NCBI GenBank assembly: GCA_021780735.1
Contig: JAJXYE010000097.1
Coordinates: 1 to 32,960 of the forward strand
Origin: Pseudomonadota bacterium
GTDB taxonomy: Bacteria; Pseudomonadota; Gammaproteobacteria; Xanthomonadales; Rhodanobacteraceae
Reading direction: 5' to 3'
DNA length: 32,960 nt
Part shown: positions 7,634 to 32,960 of the stretch, piece by piece
How the letters are laid out: every line of letters begins with the position of its first letter
Position numbering within the stretch: position 1 is the stretch's first letter
Program-made: the position numbers and the translations under genes
Notes under the pieces: generated by a model
Seen by the model: the letters and a program-made list of their open reading frames with translations, nothing else
Databases searched by the model: none
What the model was told of the DNA's origin: nothing

Positions 7634-7647
7634 CCACTGAATAAAAA

Positions 7648-7724: not shown

Positions 7725-7789
7725 ACTGTAAAACTTTTTCACCGGCCGTTTCGATGCCTCAACATCAACCCGGCGAAGCCAGAAGCGGA

Positions 7790-7818: not shown

Positions 7819-7990
7819 CCTTTTTTTCAAAAATTCCCGCGTCGGGCAACCAGACCGGCCCGACAATGCCTCCGCCCGGCTGGCACCAAAATCATCTTCC
7901 CGAAAAGCCGCCGCCAAGGCCATGGCAGGGTCGCCAGACCCCCCTTCCACCCTCCGCGCTCACTCGGCAATTAGCCGTCCAGACTTCCAT

Positions 7991-9949
7991 TCACTTATTC
8001 AGTCCGTTACGGCTCTGCGCTGCCGGATCACCCACTTTGCCTACCGCCGAACCCGCATCGCCCTTGGGCGGTGGTGGCGGCGGCACAGTGCCGGTCGAGG
8101 CATTCTTGGTCCAATCGGCCGGCGGCCCCGGCTCGCGCCCGGCCATGATGTCGTCGATCTGATGTGCATCAATGGTTTCGTATTGAAGCAGCAACTCGGC
8201 CATCGTATGCAGCTTGTCGATGTTGTCGGTAAGCAACTGGGTGCTGCGGGCATAGGCGCGATCCAGGATGCCACGCACCACTTCATCGATCTTGCTGGCC
8301 GTTTCGTTCGAGATGCTCTTGTGCTGAGTCACCGATCGACCGAGGAATACCTCATCCTCGTCCTCGCCATAGGTGATCGGGCCGAGCTCATCGGACAACC
8401 CCCACTTGGTCGCCATGTTGCGCGCCATCTTGGTGGCCCGCTCGATGTCGTTGGAGGCGCCAGTGGTGACCTTGTCGGCACCGAAGATCAGTTCCTCGGC
8501 CACCCGCCCACCGTACAGCGAGCAAAGCTGTGACTGGATCGCCACCCGGTTGATGCTGTACTTGTCGCCCTCGGGCAGATACATGGTGACGCCGAGCGCA
8601 CGCCCACGCGGAATGATCGTGACCTTGTAGACCGGGTCATGCTCGGGCACCAGACGACCGACGATGGCATGGCCGGCTTCGTGATAAGCGGTCAGCTTCT
8701 TCTCGTCCTCGCTCATCGCCATCGAGCGCCGTTCACTACCCATCAGGATCTTGTCGCGCGCCTTGTCCAAATGGCTCATGCGCACTTCACGGGCGTTGTC
8801 CCGCGCGGCAAACAGCGCCGCCTCGTTGACCAGATTGGCGAGGTCGGCACCGGAAAAGCCCGGTGTGCCCCGCGCAATGGTCATCGCGTTCACGTCACTG
8901 GCTGTCGGCACCTTGCGCATGTGCACCTTGAGGATCTGCTCGCGGCCGCGAACATCGGGCAACCCGACCACCACCTGGCGATCGAAGCGGCCCGGACGCA
9001 GCAACGCCGGATCCAGCACGTCCGGACGATTGGTCGCGGCGATCACGATGATGCCTTCGGTGCCCTCGAAACCATCCATCTCGACCAGCAGCTGGTTCAG
9101 GGTCTGCTCGCGCTCATCATGCCCACCACCGAGGCCTGCGCCACGATGACGGCCAACCGCGTCGATCTCGTCGATGAAGATGATGCAGGGCGCATGCTTC
9201 TTGGCCTGCTCGAACATGTCACGCACACGGCTTGCACCCACACCGACGAACATCTCGACGAAATCGGAACCGGAGATCGCGAAGAACGGCACCTTGGCCT
9301 CGCCGGCAATCGCCTTGGCCAGCAACGTCTTGCCCGTACCGGGGGGGCCGACCATCAGCACACCGCGCGGAATCTTGCCGCCGAGCTTCTGGAATCGGCC
9401 GGGATCGCGCAGGAACTCGACCAGCTCGCCGACCTCCTCCTTGGCCTCGTCGCAACCGGCGACGTCACTGAAATTGACCTTGATCTGATCCTCGCCCTGC
9501 AACTTGGCGCGCGAGCGACCGAAACTCATCGCTCCACGACCACCGCCGCCTGACTGCATCTGGCGCATGAACCAGATGAACACACCGACGATCAGCAGCA
9601 CCGGCAACCAGCTAACCAGCAGACCGATCAGCGAAAAGCCTTCGGAAGGATCCTGGCGCACTTCGACGCCCTTGTCCTGCATGTCCTTGACCACCGCGTT
9701 GGTGGAAGAGCCCAGCATGGGCGCTACCGTGCGGAACGCACTGCCGTCCTTCAGCTTGCCGCTGATGGTGGCCGGCTGATCGGCACTGATCGTGGCACTG
9801 GAGATGTTGCCGCTGTTCACGTTCTGCACGAACGAGCTGTAGGCCAGGTCGGAAGAACCGGCACCATGGGGACTGAAGCTCTGGAATACGGTGAACAGAA
9901 CCACCGCAATAATCACCCAGAGCAACACGTTTTTCGCTGTTTCATTCAT
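7991..9949 (-). CDS. ftsH: ATP-dependent zinc metalloprotease FtsH
   Basis: Membrane-anchored AAA+ protease that degrades membrane and short-lived regulatory proteins. It has 652 residues. Two transmembrane segments (about 8-25 and 106-128) flank a periplasmic domain. Walker A is GPPGTGKT (201-208), Walker B is IIFIDEID (256-263), and the zinc site HEAGH is at 423-427 with a distal acidic residue near 501. The C-terminus ends in a proline-rich tail (PPPPPP at about 623-628). The start ATG 9949 overlaps the rlmE stop by 8 nt (ATGAATGA), showing translational coupling in an rlmE-ftsH operon. Confidence 0.98.
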
Positions 9950-17721: not shown

Positions 17722-19107
17722 TCAGCCCATCGCTGCGGCCTGTTCCAGTTCCACCCGCAACGTCTTGATCAGCTCGCTGCGCGACACCTCGAACTGGTCC
17801 TCCCGGCGCAGATCCTTCACCGTCACCACGCCCTTGGCCAGTTCATCCTCGCCCAGCACGATCACGAAACGGATGCCGGCACGATCGGCGTATTTGAACT
17901 GCTTGCCCAGCTTGCCGCCTTCAAGCACCACCTCGGTGGCGATGCCGGCGCCGCGCAGCTCGCCGGCCAGCGCCAGGTACGCCGGCAGTTGCGCCGCGTC
18001 CATCTGGGTCACCAGCACATCGACCGTGCTGGTCGCGGTGTTGATCAGGCCGGCATCGCGCAACTGCCAGTACAGCCGGGTCAGGCCGATCGAGATGCCC
18101 ACGCCGGGCAGCTGCGACTTGGTGTACTGGCTGGCCAGGTTCTCGTAGCGCCCGCCGGAACAGATCGAGCCAATCTGCGGGTGCTCGTTGAGCGTGGTCT
18201 CGTAGACCGTACCGGTGTAGTAATCGAGGCCGCGGGCGATCGACAGGTTCAGCGCATAGTGCGTCTCCGGCACGCCGAAGGCGTGGATCAGACCAAGCAC
18301 CTCCTTCAACTCGTCACGCCCCTGCTCCATCGCTTCCGGCCCGGCGCCAAGGGCATCGAGCTTGTCCAGCGCGTCCTGCAGCGAGCTCGAGCGCACCTGC
18401 ACGAAGGCGAGGATCTTCGCCGCGACCGCGGCACTGAGGCCGAACAGCTCGCCGGTCAGGGTGTCGCGTACGTAATCGGCGCCGCGCTTGTCCAGCTTGT
18501 CCACCTCGCGCAGCACCAGCATCTGCTGCTCGGCGTCGACGATACCCAGGCTCTCGAAGTAGCCACGCATCAGCTTGCGGTTGTTGAGCTGGATCGTGAA
18601 CGGGCCAATCGCCAGCTCGCGGAACACGCTGTAGATCACTGCCGGAATCTCGGCGTCGTAGCGCACCGACAACGCATCCTTGCCGATCACGTCGATGTCG
18701 CACTGGTAGAACTCGCGGAAGCGCCCACGCTGGGCGCGCTCGCCGCGGTACACCTTCTGCATCTGGTAGCGCCGGAACGGAAAGCTCAACTCGCGCTCGT
18801 GTTCGGCGACATAGCGCGCCAGCGGCACGGTGAGGTCGAAACGAAGGGCCAGTTCCGGCATGCCCTCGTCAACCTTGTTCGCACTCAGGGCTCCGGTCGA
18901 CTGCACGAAATACACTTGCCTCTCGGTCTCGCCGCCGGTCTTGGTCAGCAGCACGTCGGAATATTCGATCACCGGCGTCTCGATCGGCAGGAAGCCGAAG
19001 CGCTCGTAGTTGCGGCGGATCACGTCAAGCATGCGCTGGAACGCGATCTGGTCGAGCGGCAACAGCTCGAGCACGCCGGGCATGGTGCGGGCCGGGGTAA
19101 GCGCCAT
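17722..19107 (-). CDS. hisS: histidyl-tRNA synthetase
   Basis: Class II aminoacyl-tRNA synthetase charging tRNA-His. It has 461 residues from ATG 19107 ([16 protein letters not shown], ribosome binding site AGAGGA). Class II motif 2 ([20 protein letters not shown]), the histidine-specific segment [15 protein letters not shown] and a C-terminal anticodon-binding domain from about 355 are visible. An in-frame extension to 19194 lacks family similarity. It lies 39 bp upstream of the ammonia-lyase gene. Confidence 0.97.
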
Positions 19108-19233
19108 GGAATCCTCTACTGACGATGGGGGACATTCCGTCTGACGGCAGAGCGCGCGACGGCAGCCGTCAAGATTAGCAGAACACCGGCGCACCCCTCT
19201 GACCCGGAGAGCCCTGCCGATGCATCGAACCTG

Positions 19234-19275: not shown

Positions 19276-19352
<77 letters not shown>

Positions 19353-19750: not shown

Positions 19751-20506
19751 GTGACGATCGACACCTTCAAAGGTACGGCGGCAAGCCTGAGCCTGGACAA
19801 GCTGAGACGCAGTTGCGGCTACTGCGCCATGCACGATGTCTGTCTGCCAGCGGGCCTTGATGGCGGAGATCTGGAGAGGCTCGATTCGACCGTTCGCGAA
19901 AGGCGTCCGCTTGATCGAGGCAGCGCGCTCTTTCACCAGGGCGATTCGTTCACGGCGCTTTACGTGGTGCGGTCGGGGTCGCTGAAGAGCTATGTGGAAG
20001 GATCTGATGGCGACATGCAGATTCTCGGCTTTCACCTGCCCGGCGAGATCATGGGGGTCGGCGGCCTCACCAATGATCATTACCCCAGCAGCGTCGAGGC
20101 GCTTGAGCGCTCCAGCATCTGCGAACTGCCCTATCCGCAATTGCAGGCGGTGAGCGCATCCATGCCTGCCCTGCATCACCAGCTGATCCGTGTGATCAGT
20201 CATGAGATCGTCTCCGAGCAGGCACACATGGTGATGATGGGCAAGCAACAGGCACAACGACGCGTCGCCATATTTCTGCGCAGCCTGGCCGATCGCTACG
20301 GGCGCTTGTCGCGAGATCCGACGGCTTTGACGCTACCGATGTCGCGCGGTGACATTGCCAACTACCTGGGCCTGGTCATCGAAACCGTCAGCCGACTGTT
20401 CAGTCGAATGGAGGCGGACGGCATTCTTGCGGTGAACCGCAAGTCGGTGCGTATCCTGCGCCGCGATCTGCTCGATGCCCTGTGCGGTGGAGAGACCGAA
20501 AGCTGA
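19751..20506 (+). CDS. fnr: FNR/Anr-type oxygen-sensing Fe-S transcription regulator
   Basis: CRP/FNR-family activator that senses oxygen through a [4Fe-4S] cluster. Using GTG 19751 (GAAGAGG ribosome binding site) it has 251 residues; a TTG at 19712 would add 13. The N-terminal cluster cysteines C22-x2-C25-x5-C31 and the distal C124 (SSICELPY) match the FNR spacing. A cyclic-nucleotide-fold domain spans about 40-150 and a dimer helix about 140-170. The HTH (about 198-220) carries E211-x2-S214-R215, equal to the FNR residues that read TTGA half-sites. Four matching sites lie in the next 12 kb, so it is the likely regulator of the accessory region. Confidence 0.92.
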   Translation: MTIDTFKGTAASLSLDKLRRSCGYCAMHDVCLPAGLDGGDLERLDSTVRERRPLDRGSALFHQGDSFTALYVVRSGSLKSYVEGSDGDMQILGFHLPGEIMGVGGLTNDHYPSSVEALERSSICELPYPQLQAVSASMPALHHQLIRVISHEIVSEQAHMVMMGKQQAQRRVAIFLRSLADRYGRLSRDPTALTLPMSRGDIANYLGLVIETVSRLFSRMEADGILAVNRKSVRILRRDLLDALCGGETES

Positions 20507-21051
20507 GTTGGCTGTGCGCACTGCAGAGGAGCACGCCAGCGCAGCGACTGACCGGCACAGGCAAGTTGCGAATCGCCAGCATGTCGAGCGGCTGCCTGCC
20601 CGCGGCAGCGGGCTCGCGTGCTGACGAACCTGCGATGCGACCACGGGCTGGAAACAGATCCGCCCTGTCACGGCATGGTGACGGCACTGACCCCTGAGTA
20701 CCGGCGACAGTCGGGTCTCGACCTGCCTGATGGCCTCATCCGGGCAAAGGACTCTGACGGGCCTGCGCAATGTCGCCCCGGTCATGCGCCGGATACAACG
20801 CGGCCCCATCGCGGGCGCAGACATCGGCATCGACGCCCGCCGTGGCTGGCCGGAATCACGATGCCCCCCTGCGCTTCTGCCCCCTCCACCCTCCTGCCGC
20901 TGACACTCCTCGCGAGGACGGTGTTCCATGGCAGCAGATCGTCGTTGCCCGCGCAAGGTGATCAGCAGGCTTTTCGTCGAATCACCGCACGCTCCGCATG
21001 ACACAAGGCGTGGTGAGCAGCACGCCGCCCTCCGTAGCGCAGTGGATCGAG
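20507..21051. other. 545-bp region without a recognisable gene
   Basis: Between the regulator and the first stress-protein gene. Open frames exist on both strands but none shows a recognisable family or a consistent ribosome binding site. Possibly decayed coding sequence; nothing is supported. Confidence 0.5.
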
Positions 21052-21065
21052 TTGACCGTAGTCAA
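21052..21065 (+). promoter_or_regulatory. FNR-type box upstream of a stress-protein gene
   Basis: TTGAC-CGTA-GTCAA, a perfect inverted repeat. Its centre is 63 bp before the ATG at 21122. A weak -10 (CACGAT, 21088-21093) sits at the class II FNR spacing, giving a start near 21100. Confidence 0.7.
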
Positions 21066-21121
21066 TAACGCGCCACGACATCCACTGCACGATGGCTCAT
21101 CATCGGCCAGAGTGAGCAAGC

Positions 21122-21922
21122 ATGCTGGACATCATCGTCAAGATAGACCAACACACGGCCGACATGGCATGGCTGAACGGCGCTCTGGCGCTTGCGCGCC
21201 GCCAGCAGGCGTTCCTGACCGGACTTCAGCTGGTTGCCGTGCAGCCTGCGCTGATGGAGATTCCCGACGCGATCAGCCTGCTCGCTGCCGAGGAAAAAAT
21301 TGCCATCGGCCGCCGCGACTGGTGGCTTGAGCTTTGCCGCGAAGCGGGCATCAGCGGTGAGTGGGAGGTCATACGCGGAATCCAGACCGCTGCGCTGGCC
21401 AAACGCTCGCGCCTGGCCGATTTCGTGATCGGCGAGCTGCGCATCAGCGATCCGGATGCACCGGCGGGATTCGACGAGATCACCCGCGCACTGTTCGCCA
21501 ATGCCGCACCCATGCTGCTGATTCCCGACATCTGCCACAACGGCCTGCACACGGATCGCATCGTCATCGCCTGGAATGGTTCGGCTGAAGCCGCGCAGGC
21601 GGTGAAAGCGGCCCTTCCGCTCTTGACACAGGCATCGGCCATTCAGGTGCTTGATGGCGAACGTGGCGGCTTGCCAGGCATCAGCCCACCGCCGCTGCCG
21701 CTGCGCGCCTGGTTGCAACGGCACGGCATCGAGGCTCAATGGGTTCCCTTTCCGGTCGAGCACGATGTGGGTACAGCCCTGCTGAACGCGGCCAAGGAGT
21801 TCCGCGCCGACCTGATGGTCATGGGGGCGTGGGGCCGTTCGCGAATCAGCGAGCTCGCCCTGGGTGGCTCAACCCGCTGGCTGCTCGAACACGCAACCCT
21901 GCCGCTGTTTCTCGCCCGTTGA
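21122..21922 (+). CDS. universal stress protein, tandem-domain (UspA family)
   Basis: 266-residue protein with two Usp-like halves. The C-terminal half ends in a nucleotide-binding-type loop GAWGRSRISELALGGS (about 236-251), close to the G-x2-G-x9-G-S/T motif but with one extra residue before GS. The N-terminal half (about 1-140) lacks the loop. This two-domain layout is common in Usp proteins of low-oxygen and persistence regulons. It is preceded by an FNR-type box and a GAGTGAG site. Its partner or ligand is unknown. Confidence 0.85.
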   Translation: MLDIIVKIDQHTADMAWLNGALALARRQQAFLTGLQLVAVQPALMEIPDAISLLAAEEKIAIGRRDWWLELCREAGISGEWEVIRGIQTAALAKRSRLADFVIGELRISDPDAPAGFDEITRALFANAAPMLLIPDICHNGLHTDRIVIAWNGSAEAAQAVKAALPLLTQASAIQVLDGERGGLPGISPPPLPLRAWLQRHGIEAQWVPFPVEHDVGTALLNAAKEFRADLMVMGAWGRSRISELALGGSTRWLLEHATLPLFLAR

Positions 21923-21925
21923 GGG

Positions 21926-22596
21926 TCAGCCGCGCCCTCTGAATTGCAACAGGTGACTTTGCAGCAGGCCAAGAAACCTGCTGTGCCGCGGTGCGCTGTT
22001 GTCCAGATGGCCACGCCCAGCGTGCGAAGCCCCTCGCCGCCCGGGCATCGATCCATCGGCTCACCTCGGCCCGCACGGGCTCAGCGCACTCGGCCAGATC
22101 CAGCATGACCTGCGGCGCACCCTTGCTGGCCGTGACCCTGGCGGCCCTGCGGATCGGTCCAGCGGCCCTCGCCGCGCTTGCCAACCGGATCGAACGGCAT
22201 GAAGTGCCCGACCACGTAACCGGTTGGCAGCTGCTGCCCCGGAAGCGCCGACCGGATCGCCCCGTCAATCGCATCACCGGTGCCGGACTGGCTGGCCAGC
22301 GCCGCATGAAGGTTCAGTACGCCGATGGATGATGATGAAATCCGCCCAATGCCGCACCAGCGCCGAAAGCAGCGCGGCAATCTCGATCATCCACGGTATC
22401 GCCCCCAGGAGTAATGAAACAGCTTCTTCCGCAGGCTTTCCCGTACCTCGGGCAGCCTGTTGGATCCGAACGTGGCCAGCCGCCACGCCTCAACCTGATC
22501 AAGCCCGCCGGGCTGGCTATCCAGCGGCTGCTGCAGTTCTTCCGGCTGCAGTGATTGTGCAGTCTTCGCGTCAAGCTCGTTGATCGGGGTGTGCAC
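21926..22596 (-). pseudogene. degraded plasma-membrane-type proton P-ATPase
   Basis: Remnant of a P-type H+-ATPase broken by several frameshifts and an internal deletion. The original start is still visible: GTG 22596 with GGAGGAG upstream, then the cation-ATPase N-terminal pattern ending GSNRLPEVRESLRKKLFHYSWG. A one-base loss near 22401-22407 shifts the frame into IPWMIEIAALLSALVRHWADFIIIH (first membrane hairpin). Near 22325 the frame jumps to LNLHAALASQSGTGDAID and HFMPFDPVGKRGEG, which belong to the nucleotide-binding domain, so roughly 270 residues including the DKTGT phosphorylation site are missing. A further shift gives VTASKGAPQVMLDLAECAEPV and then decay to about 21926. The C-terminal half is absent. 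Confidence 0.85.
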
Positions 22597-23012
22597 GGAT
22601 CTCCTCCATGCGATGCATCTGTCGTGCGGTGAGCAGAGCTCAATCACCTTTCAGTGCAAGAGACCGGGCTGCTCTCGCTCGATCTCCGCGGACTGCGCCG
22701 ACGTGGCGGTTGCACCGAATTCATCCGTCACCTTGAGCAGGGCATCAGGTACACCGTGACCGCTCCGCCATGCCGAGTGTGATTGCGCTGCCTTTCTGGC
22801 CGGGTTCGCCGTGGTCTGCGCGCGACGGCTCCCGCCACGAACCACAAGGCTCCGCTGCAGGCGCCCTGCACGCGCAGACCACTGCAAGCCGGGTTCGAAC
22901 ACACCACGATCCGGACGCTGGCATGCGAGCCCGGCACGGCCGAGGACACCGAGAACCGCCATGCCACCAGGACACGCCGCGGATGGGCGCAAACCGATCG
23001 TGATGGCGCCGC
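22597..23012. other. 416-bp region without a recognisable gene
   Basis: Lies between the ATPase remnant and the phaB stop. Open frames on the minus strand (for example 22651-22992) show no family motif, and frames are open on both strands as expected of high-GC sequence. It may be further decayed sequence. Confidence 0.5.
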
Positions 23013-23738
23013 TTACACCAGGTACTGGCCACCGTTGATCGACAGCGTCGAGCCGGTAATGAAGCCGGAGTCCTCATGCACAAGGAACGCCACCGCATGG
23101 GCAATTTCCTCCGAGCGCGCCAGCCGTCCGACCGGAATCTGCGCCACGATCCCCTCCAGCACGGTGGGATCAACCTTCGCCACCATCTCGGTGGCGGTAT
23201 AGCCCGGCGCCACCGCATTGACGGTCACGCCCTTGCGTGCGGCCTCGATTGCCAGCGCCTTGGTGAAGCCGATCATGCCGGCCTTGGCGGCGGCATAGTT
23301 GGCCTGGCCGAATTGGCCCTTCTGTCCATTGATCGACGACACGTTGACGATGCGGCCCCAGCCACGCGAGCGCAGGCCATCGATCACCGCATGGCTCATG
23401 TTGAAGCACGACGAGAGGTCATCGTCCAGCACCTCGCGCCACTGGCGCGAAGTCATCTTGTGCAGACCGGCATCGCGGGTGATACCGGCATTGTTGACCA
23501 GGATATCCACCGCCTGCGCCATATCGGCCTCGACCTGCCTGACTCCCGCCTCGCACGCATCGAAGTCAGCCACGTCCCACTTGTACGCAGGAATACCCGT
23601 CTCTTCGGTGAAATCCTGAGCCGCGGCATCGTTGCCGTGGTAGGTCACCGCGACGCGGTAGCCATCCTGTTTGAGGCGTTGCGCAATCGCGGCACCGATG
23701 CCGCGCGTCCCGCCTGTGATCAAGGCCAATTTGCCCAT
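23013..23738 (-). CDS. phaB: acetoacetyl-CoA reductase (PhaB/PhbB)
   Basis: Short-chain dehydrogenase that reduces acetoacetyl-CoA to (R)-3-hydroxybutyryl-CoA for polyhydroxybutyrate. It has 241 residues from ATG 23738, which has GGAGA seven bases upstream (the ATG at 23750 lacks one). The cofactor motif TGGTRGIG (8-15), NNAG (82-85) and the catalytic Ser135, Tyr148 and Lys152 are visible. The segment GRIVNVSSINGQKGQFGQ-NY is characteristic of PhaB rather than FabG. Last gene of a phasin-USP-phaB operon. No PHB synthase or thiolase gene lies in the window. Confidence 0.92.
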   Translation of the reverse strand: MGKLALITGGTRGIGAAIAQRLKQDGYRVAVTYHGNDAAAQDFTEETGIPAYKWDVADFDACEAGVRQVEADMAQAVDILVNNAGITRDAGLHKMTSRQWREVLDDDLSSCFNMSHAVIDGLRSRGWGRIVNVSSINGQKGQFGQANYAAAKAGMIGFTKALAIEAARKGVTVNAVAPGYTATEMVAKVDPTVLEGIVAQIPVGRLARSEEIAHAVAFLVHEDSGFITGSTLSINGGQYLV

Positions 23739-23818
23739 GTGTGTCTCCATCCAGGTAGATCAGGAAATGCGCGGCCAGACCAGTCGAACCGACCAGCACG
23801 GTCACGCCACGATGCGGC

Positions 23819-24283
23819 TCAGGCAGCGACATCGCAACGATGGCGCGGAAGCGAATGCTCCAGCATCAACGAAACCTGGCAGCGGCATGCCAGTTCATCC
23901 GCAACGCTGCCCAAGGGAAGGTTCGTTCGCAGATTTTTGCCGTGCGCGCCGCAGACGATGAGATCCGCGCCGACCACGGCAGCCTCGAGCAGGATCTGCT
24001 GGGCGATCGAGCGCTGCCTCTCATGGATCACCAGCACGGCAGTGCTGCCCAGCAAACCCTGCCCGCACGCCAAACCTACCGCGTGATCCAGCAGACTGTC
24101 GCCCGCCATGTGCATCGCGTAACGGGCCTCGTCCCACTCTGACGACTTCGTCGTGTGTTCAATCACGTGGACGAAATGGATCTCGGCATGCTGGTCGGCG
24201 GCTATGGCGATGGCACGGGCAAGTGCCCGTTCGGAGCCCTCGCTGCCGTCCACCGGCACCAGCACCCGTCTGAACACCTTCAT
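23819..24283 (-). CDS. universal stress protein, single-domain
   Basis: 154-residue UspA-family protein (MKVFRRVLVPVDGSEGSERAL). The ATP-binding loop is intact: G-A-H-G, then nine residues, then GS (GAHGKNLRTNLPLGS, about 117-131). ATG 24283 is preferred to a start six codons upstream. It sits 45 bp after the phasin gene and 80 bp before phaB, in one operon. Confidence 0.9.
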   Translation of the reverse strand: MKVFRRVLVPVDGSEGSERALARAIAIAADQHAEIHFVHVIEHTTKSSEWDEARYAMHMAGDSLLDHAVGLACGQGLLGSTAVLVIHERQRSIAQQILLEAAVVGADLIVCGAHGKNLRTNLPLGSVADELACRCQVSLMLEHSLPRHRCDVAA

Positions 24284-24328
24284 CGCCGCCACCCTGCACA
24301 ATCCATCGCCACGCCGCCTTTGCCCGAG

Positions 24329-24883
24329 TTACTTGCCAGCCCCGCCGGTGGCCGCAGACTTGCCGTTGCCGCCAGCGGCGTGAGCAGCGCGAGCCGTCGA
24401 CTCGGCCATCGCCATCACCGGCTTGAGACCGGAGTTCACGAGATGGGTTGCATCCTCGAACGAGTGCAGGAAGCTGTCCATCCAGGGGTTGGCGAGCTTG
24501 GCCGGCGGCGTGCCCAATTGCACCGCGTCGCGGCTTGCCGTCTGCAATCCGGCGAAGGTGTCACTGCCATAGGCCATCGCCAGGCGCAGGATTTCGGCGT
24601 AGGCAGCTGCGGTCTCCTTGAACAGCTCGCCGGAGCGCCCGCTCTGGCTGGCGATGCTCTTGCTGATCTGCTGCAGCGCTTGCTGCGCCATGGCGGCCGG
24701 ATCGCGACCGGCTTCACCATCGTTCGATGCCGCGAGATCGTGCAACAGGCCATGGATCACCTCGACCTGGGCATCACTGATGCGTCGGCGCTGATCGAGC
24801 AGCTTGCTGGCGAACAGGAAGGTATTGGCGACGTGGTTCTTGTGAATTTGCTTGAGTTCGTCCAACTGGGTGGCGGAAATCAT
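24329..24883 (-). CDS. phaP: phasin-family protein
   Basis: 184-residue, largely helical protein (MISATQLDELKQIHKNHVANTFLFASKLLD) with the phasin-type pattern and an Ala/Gly-rich tail. Phasins coat polyhydroxybutyrate granules. ATG 24883 has GGAGG eight bases upstream; an in-frame extension to 24925 is unlikely. It leads the phasin-USP-phaB operon, with an FNR-type box about 200 bp upstream. Family assignment is from overall pattern and context. Confidence 0.8.
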   Translation of the reverse strand: MISATQLDELKQIHKNHVANTFLFASKLLDQRRRISDAQVEVIHGLLHDLAASNDGEAGRDPAAMAQQALQQISKSIASQSGRSGELFKETAAAYAEILRLAMAYGSDTFAGLQTASRDAVQLGTPPAKLANPWMDSFLHSFEDATHLVNSGLKPVMAMAESTARAAHAAGGNGKSAATGGAGK

Positions 24884-25188
24884 CGGAGGCCTCCGGGTGC
24901 GGTGCGTTCGTCGATAGAGCGGCATGGCTCCTCAGCGGAGCTGTCGGCGCATGGGCCTGAGGCCGGTCGCAGCGGGAATCGGCTGTTTCGCGTGGCGCGC
25001 TGCGCGTATGCCAATGGGCCGCAGGTCACGGCCACCGGACATCCCATGAACATGTCGACGATAGCCGCGGAATACCGATGCGTTATTGAGCTGGATCAAC
25101 TGGAAGCGGGAATCCCGACGCCATCGAGGCCAGCCGCGGCCTGGCCAGGGATGTGGCCATGCGGGACAACTCCCGCAGATCCGCTTCA
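24884..25188 (-). promoter_or_regulatory. leader and promoter region of the phasin operon (305 bp)
   Basis: Between the alcohol dehydrogenase stop and the phasin start. It holds an FNR-type box (25086-25099) and a -10-like TATCGT (25058-25063), giving a start near 25051 and a leader of about 170 nt. No convincing gene lies in the leader. Confidence 0.6.
25086..25099 (-). promoter_or_regulatory. FNR-type box upstream of the phasin operon
   Basis: Read on the minus strand: TTGAT-CCAG-CTCAA. The -10-like TATCGT begins 30 bp from the box centre and the predicted start is about 41.5 bp from it, the class II FNR arrangement. Confidence 0.7.
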
Positions 25189-26190
25189 TCAGGCGGGCAA
25201 ATCGTTCGCACAAGTCAATACGGCTGCACCGAGGACGCGGCCATGCCGCAAATCGAACAGTGCTTCATTCGCACGAGTGAGCGGATAGGCGGTGGTCGTG
25301 GTGACCACCCCTGCCAGGGGCACGGCGGCAAAGAAGACTTTCGCATCGGCACGTGTCAGGTTGGCCACCGACATTACGTGCCGTTCCTCCCACAGCAAAC
25401 GGTAGGGAAACGCCGGAATGTCCGACATGTGGATGCCACCGCAAACGACACGCCCACCCTTGCGTACCGCCTGCAGCGCGCGCGGGATCAGGCCGCCGTC
25501 CGGGGCAAACACGATCGCGGCGTCCAGCTCCTCCGGCGCAGGCGTGGCGGAGCTGCCGGCCCACGCCACCCCCAGCGAACGCGCGAATGCCTGCCCTTCG
25601 CCATCGCCTGGCCGGGTGAATGCGAACACCCGCCGGCCCTGCCAGTGTGCCACCTGGGCAATGATGTGGGCCGCCGCACCGAAGCCGTACAAGCCCAGAA
25701 CATCGGCCTGGCCGGCCTTTTCCAGGCAACGCCAACCAATCAGGCCGGCGCACAGCAGCGGCGCAACGGCCACCGGGTCGCAGTCATGGCCAAGAGGAAT
25801 GCAGTAGGCCGCCGCCGCGACCACCCGACTGGCGAATCCGCCCGGACGCGTGTAGCCGGTGAATTGCGGCGTATCGCAAAGGTTCTCCGCCCCCGCCCTG
25901 CAGTACCGGCACGTGCCGCAGGTATGCCCCAGCCAGGGCACGCCCACTCGATCGCCCACGGCCAGGGCCGTGACACCCTCGCCCAGGGCGTCGACGATGC
26001 CGACGATCTCGTGGCCCGGAATCATCGGCAAATCCGTCTTCGGCAGTTCGCCATCGACCAGGTGAAGGTCAGTGCGACACACGCCACAGGCCTCGACGCG
26101 CAAACGAACCTCGCCTGCACCCGGCTGCGGGTCGGGCAGCTCCTGCAGACTCAGGGGCTGGCCGATGTCGGTCAATACCATGGCGAACAT
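25189..26190 (-). CDS. zinc-dependent alcohol dehydrogenase
   Basis: Medium-chain dehydrogenase, 333 residues from ATG 26190 (AGGGAGGAAGC upstream). Catalytic zinc ligands are Cys38 (CGVCRTDLH), His60 (GHE) and Cys147. The structural-zinc cysteines are C91, C94, C97 and C105 (CGTCRYCRAGAENLC). The Rossmann glycine motif is GLYGFGAAA (166-174). It would interconvert an alcohol and an aldehyde with NAD(P); the substrate is not shown by sequence. It lies 97 bp downstream of the phosphoribosyltransferase-hydrolase gene on the same strand and may share its FNR-controlled promoter. Confidence 0.92.
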   Translation of the reverse strand: MFAMVLTDIGQPLSLQELPDPQPGAGEVRLRVEACGVCRTDLHLVDGELPKTDLPMIPGHEIVGIVDALGEGVTALAVGDRVGVPWLGHTCGTCRYCRAGAENLCDTPQFTGYTRPGGFASRVVAAAAYCIPLGHDCDPVAVAPLLCAGLIGWRCLEKAGQADVLGLYGFGAAAHIIAQVAHWQGRRVFAFTRPGDGEGQAFARSLGVAWAGSSATPAPEELDAAIVFAPDGGLIPRALQAVRKGGRVVCGGIHMSDIPAFPYRLLWEERHVMSVANLTRADAKVFFAAVPLAGVVTTTTAYPLTRANEALFDLRHGRVLGAAVLTCANDLPA

Positions 26191-26287
26191 GCTTCCTCCC
26201 TTGCGACATGGCACGTCGAAAAATGGATCAGGACATGGCGGGAGACGTCGCCCTGCCATGCCGCAGGCTCGGAGCGCGTCGCACCGA

Positions 26288-27580
26288 TCAGAGCCAGCGC
26301 GTGAACCAATCGGCGGCGATCACCGCCACCTCTTCCAGCGCACCGGGCTCCTCGAACAGATGCGTGGCTCCCGGCACGATGGTGAGCTCCGCCACATGTG
26401 GCATCGATGCCTGCGCTGCGCGGTTGAGCGCAAGCACTTGCAGGTCGGCGCCACCCACGATCAGCAGCGTGGGCGCACGTACCTGCGACAGGCCCGACGC
26501 GCCTGTCAGATCCGGGCGACCACCACGCGAGACCACCGCACCAATCTCGCCGGGTCGGGCCGAAGCCACCATCAAGGCAGCCGCCGCGCCGGTACTGGCA
26601 CCGAACAGGCCACAGGGCAAATCGCGCAGTGTGGGCTCCTGCTGCACCCATTGCAGGGCCGCATCCAGCCGCCGGGCCAGCTGCAATATATCGAAGCGCG
26701 CCGCTCTGTCGCGATCCTCCTGCGCGGTCAGCAGGTCGAACAGCAAGGTTGAAAAGCCGCGCTGATTCAATACCGAGGCCACGTAACGATTGCGCGAGCT
26801 GTGCCGGCTGCTGCCGCTGCCATGCACGAAGATCACCAGACCCTGCGAAGGCGACGGCGTGACGAGGTCACCCTCGAGCACGACGCGGTCGGCGGGGATG
26901 CGCACCGGCTTGCTCCCCGGCACCGATGCGGTGGCAGCTGGTGTGACCTGGCCCGCCAGCAAGGCAATCACTTCTTCATCGCTGACTGCGGTGAAATCCA
27001 GGTAGTGCACACCGACCGCGTGGAACGGGTGCGGTGCCGCCAGGCAAACGACTTCGTCGGCCAGTCCGGACACGCGCTGCAGGCTGTCGCGCGCAGCCAC
27101 GGGCACGGCGCAGACCAGTCGTGCCGGTTCCTGCGCGCGAATCACCTGCAGCGCTGCTGCCATGGTGGCACCGGTGGCCAGGCCGTCATCGATCACGATG
27201 ACGGTTCGCCCGGCCAGGGCCATCGCGGGCCGGCCCGGGCGGTAGCGCGCGCGACGCTCGCGAATCAGCGCCAGTTCGCGTGCCGCGACCTGCTGCACAT
27301 AGGCATCGTCGGCACCGGCTTGGGCGGCGTATTCATTGAGCAACACGCGGCCCCGTTCGTCCACGGCGCCAATGGCAAACTCCGGATTGCCCGGCGCACC
27401 CAGCTTGCGCACCAGCACGACATCGAGATCGCCACCCAGCGCATCGGCGACAACTTGTCCTATCGGCACCGCGCCGCGCGGAATCGCCAGCACCACCGGA
27501 TGCGAGCCCCGGTAGTGCAGCAGCGCGGCGGCGAGTTGCCGGCCCGCATCGTCACGATCGCGGAATGGAAGCGTAACCAT
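26288..27580 (-). CDS. phosphoribosyltransferase fused to an alpha/beta hydrolase
   Basis: 430-residue two-domain protein. The N-terminal part (about 1-215) is a type I phosphoribosyltransferase with the PRPP loop VIVIDDGLATGAT (127-139) and the family start of FRDRDDAG-type proteins. The C-terminal part (about 235-430) is an alpha/beta hydrolase of dienelactone-hydrolase type: oxyanion HGSGSSRHS, nucleophile Ser329 in GASTG, Asp379 in GGADLQV and His407 in GATHLFEE. ATG 27580 has AGAGG eight bases upstream; GTG 27589 is an alternative. Both catalytic sets look intact. The substrate of neither domain is known. Divergent from the esterase-family gene over one FNR-type box. Confidence 0.88.
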   Translation of the reverse strand: MVTLPFRDRDDAGRQLAAALLHYRGSHPVVLAIPRGAVPIGQVVADALGGDLDVVLVRKLGAPGNPEFAIGAVDERGRVLLNEYAAQAGADDAYVQQVAARELALIRERRARYRPGRPAMALAGRTVIVIDDGLATGATMAAALQVIRAQEPARLVCAVPVAARDSLQRVSGLADEVVCLAAPHPFHAVGVHYLDFTAVSDEEVIALLAGQVTPAATASVPGSKPVRIPADRVVLEGDLVTPSPSQGLVIFVHGSGSSRHSSRNRYVASVLNQRGFSTLLFDLLTAQEDRDRAARFDILQLARRLDAALQWVQQEPTLRDLPCGLFGASTGAAAALMVASARPGEIGAVVSRGGRPDLTGASGLSQVRAPTLLIVGGADLQVLALNRAAQASMPHVAELTIVPGATHLFEEPGALEEVAVIAADWFTRWL

Positions 27581-27675
27581 CAGGGTCACCTCTGGCGTGC
27601 CTTGCCCGCAGCGTCCTTCGACGGCGGCTACTTCGCACCTGTGCGGCTACTGTCCCGCGTTCACCGCGGCGTCTG

Positions 27676-27689
27676 TTGACCAGGATCAA
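27676..27689. promoter_or_regulatory. FNR-type box between divergent genes
   Basis: TTGAC-CAGG-ATCAA, near perfect. It sits 96 bp from the phosphoribosyltransferase start and 69 bp from the esterase-family GTG, so one site could serve both promoters. The -10 elements at class II spacing are weak on both sides (27712-27717 to the right). Confidence 0.7.
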
Positions 27690-27757
27690 GATAACGCGCG
27701 ATTCCGCTGTCAAACTTGATCCATTGCCACCGTGCGACCGTCCGGTTCGAGGTGCGT

Positions 27758-29089
27758 GTGATCACCCGTCATTCTCCCTTGCTGGAAACCATCCGCGACG
27801 CGGCCGTCGTGCTCGGCAGCGGCGACCACGACTATGACGCGCTGATGCGGATGGTGGGTGACCGCACCTTCGTGCTGCTCGGCGAGGCCACCCATGGCAC
27901 GCACGAGTTCTACACCATGCGCGCACAGATCACGCGTCGACTGATCGGGGAGCTCGGTTTCGATGCGGTTGCCGTGGAGGCCGACTGGCCCGACGCTTAC
28001 CGGCTCAATCGTCATGTCCGTGGCATCGGCGATGCCTCGATCGACGAGGCGTTCGGCGACTTCCAGCGCTTCCCGACCTGGATGTGGCGCAACCAGGCCG
28101 TGCGCGGATTCATCCAGTGGCTGCAGGCCCACAATGCCGGGCTTCCGGCCACCTCCCACACCGGCTTCTACGGGCTGGATCTGTACAGCCTGTACCGCTC
28201 GGCCGATGCAGTCATCGATTACCTCCAGGACGTCGACCCCGACCAGGCCACGCTCGCCCGTCAGCTCTATGTGGGGCTGGATCACGTGCGCGAGCCACAG
28301 ACTTACGGACTCGAGGCCGCCGCCGGCCTGCGCCCGCCCTGCCGCGATGCCGCCGCCGCCCTGCTCGTGAACCTGATCCGCAAGGCGCCGGCCTACCTGG
28401 CCGCCGACGGCTCGGCGGCGCAGGACGAGCAGTTCTTCGCCGAACGCAACGCGTACGTCGTGCTAAACGCCGAGCAGTACTACCGCGCCATGTTCGGCAG
28501 CCGCATCAACACCTGGAATCTGCGCGACAGCCACATGGTGAATACCCTGTTCGCGCTTCGCCAGCACCTGCGCTCGCAGGGGCGCAAGGGCCGCATCGTG
28601 GTATGGGCGCACAATTCGCATCTGGGCGATGCGCGTGCCACCCAGATGGGTCAACGCGGCGAATGGAATGTCGGCCAGCTTCTGCGCGAGCAGGCCGGGG
28701 CCGCGCAGGCCCTGCTGGTGGGCTTCACCACCTATACCGGTCACGTTACCGCGGCACGCGACTGGGACGCCCCGGCGGAACGGCGCTGGGTGCGTCCGGC
28801 ACGCGCGGACAGTTGCGAGCACCTGTTCTACACCACCCACCTTGACCGCTTCTTCCTGCCACTGTCCGGCATCGCGGCCGAGGATCTCGCGCCACCGCTG
28901 CTCGAGCGGGCCATCGGCGTCGTGTACCGCCCCGAAACGGAGCTCGCCAGCCATTACTTCAGCGCTTCGCTGAGTCAGCAGTTCGATGCCGTGTTCCACC
29001 TCGATGAAACCAGTGCGGTCGAACCGCTCGACATCAGCGCACACTGGACCACGCATGAGCCGCCGGACACCTACCCTTCGGGCCTGTAG
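27758..29089 (+). CDS. erythromycin-esterase-family protein
   Basis: 443-residue member of the erythromycin esterase (EreA/EreB-like) family. Catalytic-type residues are present: GEATHG (42-47, with Glu43 and His46), Glu74 in VEADWPD, and WAHNSHLGD (283-291, with His285 and His288). The family includes true macrolide esterases and many proteins of unknown substrate; nothing here indicates macrolide resistance. GTG 27758 has GAGG upstream; the earlier in-frame TTG 27716 lies before the start site expected from the FNR-type box, so it is disfavoured. Divergent from the phosphoribosyltransferase-hydrolase gene. Confidence 0.85.
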   Translation: MITRHSPLLETIRDAAVVLGSGDHDYDALMRMVGDRTFVLLGEATHGTHEFYTMRAQITRRLIGELGFDAVAVEADWPDAYRLNRHVRGIGDASIDEAFGDFQRFPTWMWRNQAVRGFIQWLQAHNAGLPATSHTGFYGLDLYSLYRSADAVIDYLQDVDPDQATLARQLYVGLDHVREPQTYGLEAAAGLRPPCRDAAAALLVNLIRKAPAYLAADGSAAQDEQFFAERNAYVVLNAEQYYRAMFGSRINTWNLRDSHMVNTLFALRQHLRSQGRKGRIVVWAHNSHLGDARATQMGQRGEWNVGQLLREQAGAAQALLVGFTTYTGHVTAARDWDAPAERRWVRPARADSCEHLFYTTHLDRFFLPLSGIAAEDLAPPLLERAIGVVYRPETELASHYFSASLSQQFDAVFHLDETSAVEPLDISAHWTTHEPPDTYPSGL

Positions 29090-29189
29090 CGATGCCGCAC
29101 CGGAACTGGCTCGACCCGCCTGACCGGCAACCCGCCATGCGCGGGGTGGAGCTGTTGCGGCCGGGGAAGGCCGTGCCGGCTCGACGTCG

Positions 29190-30929
29190 ATGAGCCGCAG
29201 CAATGCGGACATCGCCGCCGTGTTCGAGGAAGTGGCCGAGCTCCTCGAATGGCAGCAAGCCAATGCCTTTCGCGTGCGCGCCTACCGCAACGCGGCGCGC
29301 ACGATCGCCAGCTGGCCCGAGGCGATGGCCGACCTCATCGCACGCGATGGCAGGCTGGACGAGCTGCCGACGATCGGCAGGGATCTGGCTGGCAAGATCG
29401 GGGAGATCGTGCGGCGCGGCAGTTGCGACCTGCTCGATCGCCTGCGTTCGTCATCGCCACCGGGCATCACTGACCTGCTGCACATTTCGGGCCTGGGACC
29501 CAGGCGGGTGCATGCGCTTTACCACGAACTGGGCATCCACACGCCGACCCAGTTGCTCGATGCGGCACGCGAAGCTCGCATCCGCTCGCTGCCCGGCTTC
29601 GGGCCACGCAGCGAGCAGCGTCTGGCCGAAGCCGCGGCCGGCTATCTCGAGCGCTCACGGCGCTGGCCGCTGGCCAGGGTCGCGCCGATCGTCGATGCGC
29701 TGCAGACCTGGCTGCGCACCGCACCGGGCGTTGCCAGGGTGGTCATGGCCGGCAGCTTTCGTCGACGCCGCGAGACGGTCGGCGATCTGGATATCCTGAT
29801 CGCAGCGCAACCCGGGCCAGCACTGACCCGCTACCTCACGGGCTTCGAGCAGGTCGACTCGATCCTGTCACGCGGGCCCAGCCGAACCAGCGTGGTGCTC
29901 CATGGCGGCCTGCAGGTGGACTTCCGCGTGGTGGCGGCGACCGAGTTCGGCGCCGCGCTGGTCTACTTCACCGGCTCCAGGGCACACACCATCGCCCTGC
30001 GCCGCATCGCCCGGTCGCGCAAACTGAAGATCAACGAGTACGGGGTGTACCGTGGCCGCAAACGCATCGCCGGCGACACCGAGGCGTCCGTCTATGGCAG
30101 CATCGGCCTGCCCTGGATTCCACCGGAATTGCGCGAGAACCGGGGCGAGATCGAGGCAGCCCGCGACGGAACCTTGCCGAAGCTTGTCCAGCGCAGAGAC
30201 CTGCGCGGCGACTTGCACGCACATACACAAGCCAGCGACGGCAGGGAGAGCCTGGAACAGATGGCGCAGGCGGCAAAGGCCGCCGGCCTGAAGTATCTTG
30301 CCATCACCGATCATTCACGCCGCCTTGCCATCGCCAACGGACTCGATCCGGGACGCCTGGCGGCGCAGATCGATGCGATCGACCAGCTCAACGAAAAGCT
30401 CAGCGGCATCGTCCTGCTCAAGGGCATCGAAGTGGACATCCTGCCGGATGGGCGACTTGACCTCCCCGACGCCTTGCTCGCCCGCCTGGATCTGGTGGTC
30501 GGGGCGGTGCACAGCGATCTGGAGCTGTCGCGCGCACGACAGACCACGCGCATCCTGCGCGCCATGGATCGGCCGAATTTCAGCATCCTGGCGCATCCCA
30601 ATGGACGCCTGTTCGGCAGCCGCGGCCCATGCCAGCTGGACATGGATCTGATCATTGACCACGCCCGCGAACGCGGCTGCTTCCTTGAACTCGACTCGCA
30701 GCCGGATCGGCTGGACATGTTCGACACGCAGTGCCGGCGGGCCAGGGAGGCCGGCGTGATGGTGGCCATCTCCAGCGACGCCCACCACGGCAGTGACCTG
30801 CGCTGGCTGGAGCTGGGAGTCGATCAGGCTCGACGCGGGTGGCTGCAGGCAGGGGACGTGCTCAATGCTTTGCCGCTGGGTCAGCTGCGTCGCATGCTGG
30901 CCAGAACGATGACCCAGGCGCGAAAGTGA
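29190..30929 (+). CDS. polX: DNA polymerase/3'-5' exonuclease PolX
   Basis: Family X DNA polymerase with a PHP nuclease domain, used in gap-filling repair. It has 579 residues, normal length. Helix-hairpin-helix segments lie at about 55-140. The polymerase site GSFRRRRETVGDLDIL (188-203) gives Asp199 and Asp201, with the third Asp244 in LQVDFR. The PHP domain starts near 340 with DLHAHTQASDG (His343, His345), AITDHS (Asp374, His375), Glu414, His441, His469, Asp530 and His532. All metal ligands appear present. It starts 100 bp after the esterase-family gene and is probably cotranscribed. The ribosome binding site is weak. Confidence 0.94.
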   Translation: MSRSNADIAAVFEEVAELLEWQQANAFRVRAYRNAARTIASWPEAMADLIARDGRLDELPTIGRDLAGKIGEIVRRGSCDLLDRLRSSSPPGITDLLHISGLGPRRVHALYHELGIHTPTQLLDAAREARIRSLPGFGPRSEQRLAEAAAGYLERSRRWPLARVAPIVDALQTWLRTAPGVARVVMAGSFRRRRETVGDLDILIAAQPGPALTRYLTGFEQVDSILSRGPSRTSVVLHGGLQVDFRVVAATEFGAALVYFTGSRAHTIALRRIARSRKLKINEYGVYRGRKRIAGDTEASVYGSIGLPWIPPELRENRGEIEAARDGTLPKLVQRRDLRGDLHAHTQASDGRESLEQMAQAAKAAGLKYLAITDHSRRLAIANGLDPGRLAAQIDAIDQLNEKLSGIVLLKGIEVDILPDGRLDLPDALLARLDLVVGAVHSDLELSRARQTTRILRAMDRPNFSILAHPNGRLFGSRGPCQLDMDLIIDHARERGCFLELDSQPDRLDMFDTQCRRAREAGVMVAISSDAHHGSDLRWLELGVDQARRGWLQAGDVLNALPLGQLRRMLARTMTQARK

Positions 30930-30975
30930 GCTGGTGGTCGCCGGCCCGGTCGGCACCCGCCAGCAGGTTCTCTGG

Positions 30976-30989
30976 TTGACCGTCGTCAA
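30976..30989 (+). promoter_or_regulatory. FNR-type box upstream of the CBS-ATPase operon
   Basis: TTGAC-CGTC-GTCAA, a perfect inverted repeat. The -10 CATCAT (31012-31017) is at class II FNR spacing, with the start near 31024 and 34 nt before the CBS gene ATG. Best of the four sites. Confidence 0.75.
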
Positions 30990-31057
30990 GACGGCGGCGT
31001 TGCCCTGCGGCCATCATGCCGAGGTGGCCGGATGGGCCACGACCAAGGAGATTTTCG

Positions 31058-31507
31058 ATGCGCATCGCCGAAATCTGTACCCGCCACGTGGTGGCTGTCG
31101 AGGCCGACGCATCGGTGCGCGAAGCTGCCGGGGTCATGCGCAAGCAGCACGTTGGAAGTCTGGTCGTCACCCAGCAGCCCGACGGCGAGCGTATCCCGAT
31201 CGGCTTCGTCACCGATCGCGACATCGTCCTTGGCGTGGTCGCCGCGGGCATCGACGCCGATGCACTTGCCGTGGCCGACATCATGAGCGGCGATGTCGCC
31301 ACATGCACCGAGAGCGAAGACATCTTCGACGCCATCCAGACCATGCGTTCTCGCGGCATACGGCGCCTTCCGGTACTCAACGGCAATGGCGGACTGGCGG
31401 GCATGGTCAGCGCCGACGATATCTACTCGGCGCTCAGCACGCACATGCATGAACTGACCGCAGCCCTGACCGGCGAGCAGGTGCACGAGATGGCATCGCG
31501 CACCTGA
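31058..31507 (+). CDS. CBS-domain pair protein
   Basis: 149-residue protein made of two CBS domains (about 7-63 and 75-128), a module that binds adenine nucleotides and reports energy state. ATG 31058 has AAGGAG seven bases upstream; a longer frame to 31016 has no ribosome binding site and begins before the predicted transcription start. First gene of an operon with a small unknown ORF and a P-type ATPase. It has no fused output domain, so it may act on a partner. Confidence 0.92.
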   Translation: MRIAEICTRHVVAVEADASVREAAGVMRKQHVGSLVVTQQPDGERIPIGFVTDRDIVLGVVAAGIDADALAVADIMSGDVATCTESEDIFDAIQTMRSRGIRRLPVLNGNGGLAGMVSADDIYSALSTHMHELTAALTGEQVHEMASRT

Positions 31508-31533
31508 AGTTCCCCGTTCCGTGGAGCAAGGCG

Positions 31534-31869
31534 ATGGCAAAGCGATATCCGGTGGTTTGCTGTCCGATGACCGGCAACGCACAAGGGATCGCCGATGCGG
31601 TCGTCGCCGCCGTCAACACCGACCGCGAGAAAGATTGCGCGCGCTCTCGGCGGAATGGCACGGCTGCTGCGCTGCATGCCTGGTTCGATGCCATCACCCG
31701 TGGCGAGTCATCGATCGATCCCGTTCGTCGGAATCCGTGGGGATGCGGGATGCTGGTCGCCCGCGGATCGGATCTGTGCCATCGCGGCGCGCCGCATTCC
31801 TCTGAATGGGCCAGCGCAGCCCATGGCTTGATCGGGGGCGCTTCGCCCTGGGCCGGAACAGCGCCGTGA
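31534..31869 (+). CDS. hypothetical protein, 111 residues
   Basis: Not recognised. It begins MAKRYPVVCCPMTGNAQG with a GGAGCAAGG ribosome binding site, and shows two adjacent cysteines early, no signal peptide and no membrane segment. Its stop TGA overlaps the GTG start of the ATPase gene (GTGA), which supports translation and coupling. It lies 26 bp after the CBS gene. It could still be a chance frame with a fortunate overlap. Confidence 0.45.
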   Translation: MAKRYPVVCCPMTGNAQGIADAVVAAVNTDREKDCARSRRNGTAAALHAWFDAITRGESSIDPVRRNPWGCGMLVARGSDLCHRGAPHSSEWASAAHGLIGGASPWAGTAP

Positions 31870-32960
31870 CCCGCCGCCGCTCCGGGCCGACACGGGAACA
31901 CGCCGCCGACGCGATCGCACGCCCGCCCCGCAAAAACGGCGAAGCGTCGCGGCGATGGTCTGATGCAGCAGCAGCGGGCCTGTCCAGCCGCGAAGCCGCC
32001 GAGCGCCTGCGCCGCAATGGGCCAAACCTGCTACCGCAAGCACAACGGACGCGCTGGCTGGAAGCCATCGCCAGCATGCTGCGCGAACCGATGCTGTTGC
32101 TGCTGCTCGGTGCGGCTGTCATCTACTGGATCCTCGGCGATCCGCAGGAAGCAGCCGTACTTGGCGCCTCGGTGCTTCTGGTCATCGCCATGACTGCCTA
32201 CCAGGAGCTCAAGTCCGAACACGCACTGCAGGCGCTGCGCGACCTCAGCAGCCCGCGTGCGCGCGTGCTTCGCGACGGCATTACTTGCCAGGTCGCGGCG
32301 CGCGACCTGGTCACCGGTGACGTGATCCTGGTCGGTGAAGGCGATCGAGTGCCAGCCGATGCCCGGCTGTTCCATGGCGGCCATCTGCAGGTGGACGAAT
32401 CGCTGCTGTCCGGCGAATCGGTACCCGTACGTCGCCATGCCGCGAGCGCCGCATCGGGCGATAGCAGTGACCTTCTGCGTGCAGGCACCCTGGTGATCAG
32501 CGGTCATGGCATGGCCGAGGTGGTGGCTACCGGCGCCGACACGGAAGCAGGCCGAATCGGCGTGGCCCTGCGCACGATCCGCAGAGAGCCCTCGCCGATG
32601 CAGCGCGAAATGCGACACGTGGTTCTGGTGTTCGCCCTGATCGGGCTTGCTTCATGCACGTTGGTCGTCGCGCTTTACGTCAGCACCCGCGGCGGCTGGC
32701 TGGATGCGCTGCTGGCGGGTATCACGCTCGCCATCTCCAATATCCCCGAAGAACTGCCGGTGGTGATGACGGTATTCCTTGCCCTTGGCGCGTGGCGCAT
32801 GGCGCGTCATCAGGCACTGATCCGGCGTGCACCCGCCATCGAGGCGCTTGGCGCGGTGACGGTACTGTGCACCGACAAGACCGGCACGCTGACCGAGAAC
32901 CGCATGGCGGTGGTCGAACTGGCCACACCGGATGAACATGCCAAGCCATCGTCGGCGCTG
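31866..32960 (+). CDS. cation-translocating P-type ATPase, partial at window edge
   Basis: N-terminal 365 residues of a P2-type cation pump (ion unknown). Visible: a cation-ATPase N-terminal pattern (GLSSREAAERLRRNGPNLLP), two membrane helices, the actuator loop LLSGESVPV near residue 184, the membrane segment with NIPEELPVVMT, and the phosphorylation motif DKTGTLTENR with Asp337. It starts at GTG 31866, overlapping the previous stop. The gene continues beyond 32960. Unlike the ATPase remnant at 21926-22596, this one is intact as far as seen and has a different N-terminal sequence. Confidence 0.9.
   Translation, partial: MTRRRSGPTREHAADAIARPPRKNGEASRRWSDAAAAGLSSREAAERLRRNGPNLLPQAQRTRWLEAIASMLREPMLLLLLGAAVIYWILGDPQEAAVLGASVLLVIAMTAYQELKSEHALQALRDLSSPRARVLRDGITCQVAARDLVTGDVILVGEGDRVPADARLFHGGHLQVDESLLSGESVPVRRHAASAASGDSSDLLRAGTLVISGHGMAEVVATGADTEAGRIGVALRTIRREPSPMQREMRHVVLVFALIGLASCTLVVALYVSTRGGWLDALLAGITLAISNIPEELPVVMTVFLALGAWRMARHQALIRRAPAIEALGAVTVLCTDKTGTLTENRMAVVELATPDEHAKPSSAL

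Follow-up and report, generated by a model that had tools for sequence, protein, structure and literature searches.

Low-oxygen gene sets of the kind considered here are already known from three systems: the low-oxygen-activated (lxa) locus of Burkholderia cenocepacia, the Fnr targets of Herbaspirillum seropedicae and the microoxic genes of Bradyrhizobium diazoefficiens. Control in Bradyrhizobium runs through FixK2, which is not known as an Fe-S FNR. In H. seropedicae, the Fnr1/Fnr3 regulon comprises usp, ompW1, the phaC2-fabI operon, a phasin gene, cydAB and adhA, and two of the three Fnr orthologues are needed together at some promoters, according to the available part of that report (PMC5934665). 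In B. diazoefficiens, universal stress proteins (Usp), CBS-domain proteins, phosphoketolase, phasin and AdhP are raised at low oxygen, as stated in the accessible portion of the source (PMC6515984). Here we analysed a contig of 32,960 bases (C82, taken whole and called the window) from a metagenome-assembled genome taken to be of the genus Rhodanobacter (3.57 Mb, 426 contigs, 86.8% complete). The right part of the window begins past hisS and tRNA-Pro(cgg) and holds an FNR-type regulator gene and four FNR-type boxes (Table 1). Rhodanobacter is known from denitrifying soils and groundwater.

We put at roughly 80% the probability that this right part consists of accessory cassettes for stress, storage and repair located at the tRNA-Pro(cgg)/hisS junction, equipped with class II FNR-dependent promoters and belonging to a genome-wide low-oxygen regulon. 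The reading is built on the boxes, on -10-like hexamers at a fixed spacing from them, on conservation and on the residues of the regulator, all of them features of the sequence. The four inverted repeats of the original prediction are all present, each in intergenic DNA ahead of a gene or operon (Usp, the phasin-like gene, the divergent phosphoribosyltransferase [PRT]-hydrolase/esterase pair and the CBS gene). Three of them match the proposed matrix TTGAY-N4-RTCAA exactly; the 25086 box departs from it by one mismatch, though it is an exact TTGA-N6-TCAA.

TTGA-N6-TCAA occurs four times in the window, always within 21052 to 30989, and none of 11 permuted palindromes occurs at all; TTGA and TCAA at other spacings from 0 to 14 are found at most once. 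The one-mismatch count is weaker than the exact counts (6 in the window against a shuffle mean of 2.06, with at least 6 in 3 of 100 shuffles). Scanning the genome with the matrix gave 35 exact sites, compared with 2 for the reversed pattern; two of these, on C267 and C328, are identical in site and flank, so that 34 sites are probably distinct. Between 19751 and 32960, three exact sites stand against 0.126 expected at uniform density (Poisson P = 3e-4, for a region not picked independently of the sites). Matches are found in 41 of 41 genomes, with 9 to 84 in each and 0 to 26 for the controls. FNR-type boxes are in excess across the whole genome group.

The surroundings of the boxes resemble promoters. 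A -10 element at an offset of 21 to 22 corresponds to the spacing of class II FNR promoters, and all four window boxes have NANNNT at offset 22 towards their genes. Among 26 box-gene pairs of the genome, NANNNT lies at offset 22 in 58% and at offset 21 in 19%, other offsets averaging 3%; among 83 distinct pairs from relatives, the figures are 33%, 23% and 3%. Taking offsets 21 and 22 together, the motif is present in 18 of the 26 own pairs (14 of 22 outside the window), compared with a mean of 1.45 and a maximum of 5 for other offset pairs, and in 45 of the 83 pairs of relatives (mean 4.72, maximum 13); offset 21 was added to this test after the data had been seen. The own pairs were drawn from 35 boxes (27 intergenic, five of these with no gene start in range, and 8 coding) and those of relatives from 67 boxes in 24 loci (61 intergenic, 6 coding, 1 without a gene in range). 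For 51 boxes with a single candidate gene, the offset-22 motif faces the gene in 22 and faces away in 6. We discarded the idea that the 27676 box has no -10 element in the minus direction, which held at offset 22 alone, offset 21 having one. At the sequence level, the window boxes fit class II FNR promoters, with a predicted box centre near -41.5 and a predicted -10 element downstream.

Boxes also recur upstream of orthologues. We sought them within 300 bp upstream in distinct rows, own copies included, from 11 of 80 selected loci besides loci of further same-genus genomes. A box precedes 19 of 21 Usp, 10 of 16 erythromycin-esterase-like (EreL), 10 of 13 PRT-hydrolase and 3 of 5 CBS rows, as well as both phasin-like rows, where it lies 202 bp upstream in the window and in relative G005 (L243) with an identical -10 hexamer. 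None was found ahead of the hisS control (0/30), Usp1 (0/1) or PhaB (0/2). The figures are 13 of 32 for FNR and 1 of 3 for PolX, once rows with impossible distances (1269 to 1636 bp, clipped starts: PolX rows L239, L240 and L241, FNR row L187) had been dropped. Nine divergent hydrolase/esterase spacers were aligned (window, L023-L027, L029, L079 and L170, without L028, which also has a box): the half-sites show no variation (1.00), against a mean of 0.53 for the remaining columns, and the single box faces a -10 element both ways in 9/9. This one conserved box facing two -10 elements would make a test case for one FNR dimer serving two promoters. Separately, of the 19 Usp rows with a box (L187-L207), 13 carry a second one 66 to 153 bp upstream of the first, which suggests tandem FNR sites.

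The locus had been presented as a self-contained regulon, a description that is not supported. A closed local circuit is rejected because the genome has 35 sites and three FNRs with four cysteines and E..SR (in the window, on C95 and on C125), and because the esterase cassette stands apart from FNR in relatives; the cassettes appear to belong to a genome-wide FNR regulon. In the one-contig genome G041, the esterase/hydrolase/alcohol dehydrogenase (ADH) cassette lies beside tRNA-Pro/hisS, 1.45 Mb from the FNR orthologue, and in the drafts G019, G055, G011 and G006 the two are on different contigs. Elsewhere in the host genome, boxes precede cytochrome bd (cydA), OmpW and FtsH genes on C144, Hsp20 and a phaC-PTB-ackA-fabI-phosphoketolase run on C363, and Usp and GNAT genes on C348; on C421, one box runs into the start, as called, of a cytochrome oxidase subunit I gene. 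Of the 45 genomes of the genus, the host genome among them, 7 have EreL, 17 the Usp and 4 the CBS gene at the thresholds applied; 41 have an FNR match at 1e-30 and 33 an FNR row of at least 60% identity. Usp cassettes often adjoin FNR in relatives, Usp also standing next to FNR in G006, G044 and G048, which speaks for the original prediction.

In the mechanism that we favor, a fall in oxygen would allow an Fe-S FNR dimer to bind each box. The box centre would lie near -41.5 or -40.5 relative to the putative start site, and the bound FNR would recruit RNA polymerase to a -10 element that starts 21 to 22 nt past the box. The 21052 box would drive Usp; the 25086 box, a run of the phasin-like, Usp and PhaB genes; the 27676 box, the divergent PRT-hydrolase-ADH and esterase-PolX pairs; and the 30976 box, the CBS gene and perhaps the cation ATPase, these operon limits being predicted ones. 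The benefit may be survival without oxygen.

Several points weigh against this proposal. Among the genome boxes, 8 of 35 fall inside called coding sequence, the gene calls coming from a home-made codon-usage caller, and 8 of the 26 own box-gene pairs are without a -10 element. No box was found within 300 bp upstream of fnr, ADH or PolX in the window, so that describing the regulon as covering the accessory region was too wide. Upstream boxes are absent from 6 of 16 EreL, 3 of 13 PRT-hydrolase and 2 of 5 CBS rows, and only 1 of 7 ADH rows has one; moreover, the loci of relatives were chosen for carrying these genes and are not a random sample. The persistence step is questioned by B. cenocepacia H111, which still survives anoxia without lxa and loses survival on removal of both anr genes, according to the part of the report available (PMC9104464).

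The window regulator appears to be an Fe-S FNR, with three N-terminal cysteines, a central one and E..SR in the recognition helix; all seven residues singled out by the original prediction are present. It aligns with the solved FNR 5cvr/5e44, from Aliivibrio fischeri, over residues 21-248 (E 7e-54), with the four cysteines and E..SR in register; ligands and reading residues are alike, but the proteins are distinct. The window FNR is not counted here in the NCBIfam Fnr subfamily NF008365, scoring 216.8 bits, just under the curated cut-off of 228.

Which FNR reads the boxes is the point on which the strongest alternative turns, and we regard it as a real contender, though less likely to be right than wrong: the boxes would be functional, and their main reader another FNR (that of C125 or C95), the window FNR being a minor or cassette-specific partner. 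Both candidates also have four cysteines and E..SR, relative G049 has box-bearing cassettes but matches the window FNR at no more than 37%, and the promoters of H. seropedicae that need two Fnr orthologues offer a precedent. Against it, a Usp gene with a box lies next to the window FNR, an arrangement shared by G006 and G044, and the C95 and C125 proteins have only 32% and 37% identity with the window FNR, so that preferences for flanking bases may differ.

The ancestry of the regulator opens a further, rather doubtful possibility. In a 33-row tree, a weakly supported clade (80/99, drawn open) unites the window FNR with ten others, and all 11 rows have an HHE-ATPase (6) or Usp (5) match within ~1.5 kb, 3 also having GNAT; of the remaining 19 orthologue rows, 18 have GNAT and six of these 18 also a 41-45% Usp match. 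Of the 30 orthologue rows, the window copy among them, 27 retain all seven residues and 30 retain E..SR. The closest relatives of the window FNR are those of G048, G006 and G044 (90/80, not starred), whose ligand positions read C-S-H-F (L144), C-C-R-C (L145) and C-C-Q-C (L146). Because these sisters lost one to three ligands but still have the reading helix and, close by, a Usp gene with a box, the window FNR might represent a cassette-borne Rhodanobacter lineage turning into an oxygen-blind local activator; a regulator that answers to a different trigger, or to no trigger at all, would then have taken over boxes of the global oxygen regulon. The ligand set of the window FNR itself is intact. 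If the losses are real, they would reveal an oxygen sensor in the course of conversion to another role beside stress genes.

That an FNR-type regulator already without its cluster reads the repeats, in response to a signal other than oxygen itself, is improbable. The G049 FNR-like gene beside Usp (L250:6266-7147) has 0/4 ligands and, like the three sisters, keeps E..SR; all four ligand-poor regulators (L144, L145, L146, L250) are near box-bearing Usp genes. However, the window, C95 and C125 FNRs keep all four ligands, and the four other Crp/FNR genes, of seven above the Pfam cut-off (three more score below it), are without E..SR by eye. Finally, although the most permissive one-mismatch count does not stand out from the shuffles (10 against a mean of 6.68, with at least 10 in 14 of 100 shuffles), chance palindromes are rejected as highly implausible because of the exact counts with their controls, the -10 spacing and the recurrence upstream of orthologues.

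The junction also carries cassettes in G041 and in G005, the latter with FNR, HHE-ATPase, Usp, PhaB and the phasin-like gene; no such cassette was found there in the 12 to 14 kb inspected in each of G007, G054, G018, G006 and G060, four of which have only partial matches (35-37%) to a P-type ATPase. A search for exact overlaps of 15 to 300 bases between the ends of contigs C82, C348, C363 and C144 found none, and joining them was rejected, their adjacency being unproven, although C144 and C363 each have an FtsH part at an end.

Table 1. Boxes, predicted promoter elements and genes of the window.
Feature	Position	Strand	Remarks
hisS	17722..19194	-	left neighbour, core gene; translation; match in 44/45 genus genomes, own included
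tRNA-Pro(cgg)	19276..19352	+	ARAGORN; edge of accessory region
FNR regulator with Fe-S ligands, 251 aa	19751..20506	+	C22/C25/C31/C124, E211/S214/R215
FNR box TTGACCGTAGTCAA	21052..21065	+	56 bp ahead of usp (21122+)
Predicted -10 CACGAT	21088..21093	+	offset 22 past 21052 box
Universal stress protein, 266 aa	21122..21922	+	PF00582
Possible P-type cation/proton ATPase remnant	21846..22647	-	gene not intact; two collinear pieces with weak matches; Cation_ATPase_N E 0.0034; TIGR01647 E 0.018
Acetoacetyl-CoA reductase (PhaB type)	23013..23738	-	TIGR01829 over cut-off; PhaB equivalog NF042966 under its cut-off
Universal stress protein, ~153 aa	23819..24280	-	PF00582
Phasin-like protein, 184 aa	24329..24883	-	name suggested by size, predicted helices and PhaB neighbour
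Predicted -10 TATCGT	25058..25063	-	offset 22 past 25086 box, minus strand; identical hexamer in L243
FNR box	25086..25099	-	reads TTGAGCTGGATCAA, TTGATCCAGCTCAA on minus strand; 202 bp ahead of phasin-like gene (24883-)
Zinc-binding alcohol dehydrogenase (adh_fam_2)	25189..26190	-	TIGR02822 over cut-off
Phosphoribosyltransferase-dienelactone-hydrolase-like fusion	26288..27580	-	resembles 1wd5, 2o2g
Predicted -10 GACAGT	27649..27654	-	offset 21 past 27676 box, towards PRT-hydrolase
FNR box TTGACCAGGATCAA	27676..27689	.	between divergent PRT-hydrolase (27580-) and esterase (27758+)
Predicted -10 CAAACT/AAACTT	27711..27717	+	offset 21 or 22 past 27676 box, towards esterase
Erythromycin-esterase-like protein (EreL)	27758..29089	+	PF05139
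PolX-type DNA polymerase/exonuclease	29190..30929	+	NF006375 over cut-off; probably cotranscribed with esterase
FNR box TTGACCGTCGTCAA	30976..30989	+	68 bp ahead of CBS gene (31058+)
Predicted -10 CATCAT	31012..31017	+	offset 22 past 30976 box
Two-CBS-domain protein	31058..31507	+	PF00571, two stretches
P-type cation ATPase	31806..32960	+	truncated by contig end

Some of the cassette genes call for comment. The 0.5 kb between fnr and the first box (20507-21051) holds no convincing gene. A further ~1.1 kb without an intact gene (21923-23012) contains two weak minus-strand pieces that hint at a degraded P-type cation/proton ATPase; the 29 stop-to-stop pieces of this stretch gave no match to any of 3108 long frames from the loci, so that the remnant is not confirmed, and scattered short tblastx matches over this stretch were discarded. 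The phasin-like protein has no family match and no solved relative; its model is all-helical and of low confidence (mean pLDDT 46.1), too poor for a fold search, and the absence of a match in 12 genomes, one a Burkholderia, shows nothing. EreL scores far under the EreA, EreB and EreD cut-offs and, on present evidence, its function is not macrolide-specific.

Other contigs of the genome add genes of their own. Behind two FNR boxes, L104 (C363) carries at 1-8533 phaC, MaoC-PTB, acetate kinase, a FabI-like gene, phosphoketolase and an ATP-synthase alpha/beta-family gene, a run that looks like a fermentation/storage bypass. L103 (C348) encodes at 6113-8407 a P-type ATPase with a C-terminal hemerythrin (HHE) domain, which adjoins FNR in several relatives. 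Three further cassette proteins (L103:8407-9687, L104:9970-11013 and L103:12757-13254) are found again in relatives and match no Pfam family.

Taken as a prediction, the set would constitute a testable low-oxygen regulon outside Burkholderia; among the literature titles and abstract openings listed there was no description of this gene set in Rhodanobacter, which is no proof of absence. The likeness to lxa put forward by the original prediction is borne out by gene families shared by annotation, at least in the available parts of the two reports (PMC6127331, PMC9733578): several Usp, an acetoacetyl-CoA reductase (BCAM0296) and a zinc-binding alcohol dehydrogenase (BCAM0299) are common to both, and BCAM0295, an uncharacterized protein of 19.8 kDa, is numbered between a Usp and phbB. 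The alpha-crystallin heat-shock protein and phosphate acetyl/butyryl transferase of lxa have their counterparts here on C363, whereas the PRT-hydrolase, the esterase-like protein and PolX are not named among the lxa genes in those parts. The lxa locus differs in host class and gene set. It is a contiguous block of ~50 low-oxygen-induced genes; here, about a dozen genes precede the contig end, and similar genes are split over C348, C363 and C144, contigs of unproven adjacency. The microoxic set of B. diazoefficiens, as given in the accessible portion of the source, likewise resembles the window genes (PMC6515984). The Fnr targets of H. seropedicae are direct ones, established by ChIP-seq and RNA-seq according to the available part of that report, whereas those proposed here are known from sequence alone; nevertheless, boxes precede much the same genes in the present genome, namely Usp, OmpW, the phaC...fabI run, the phasin-like gene and cydA (PMC5934665).

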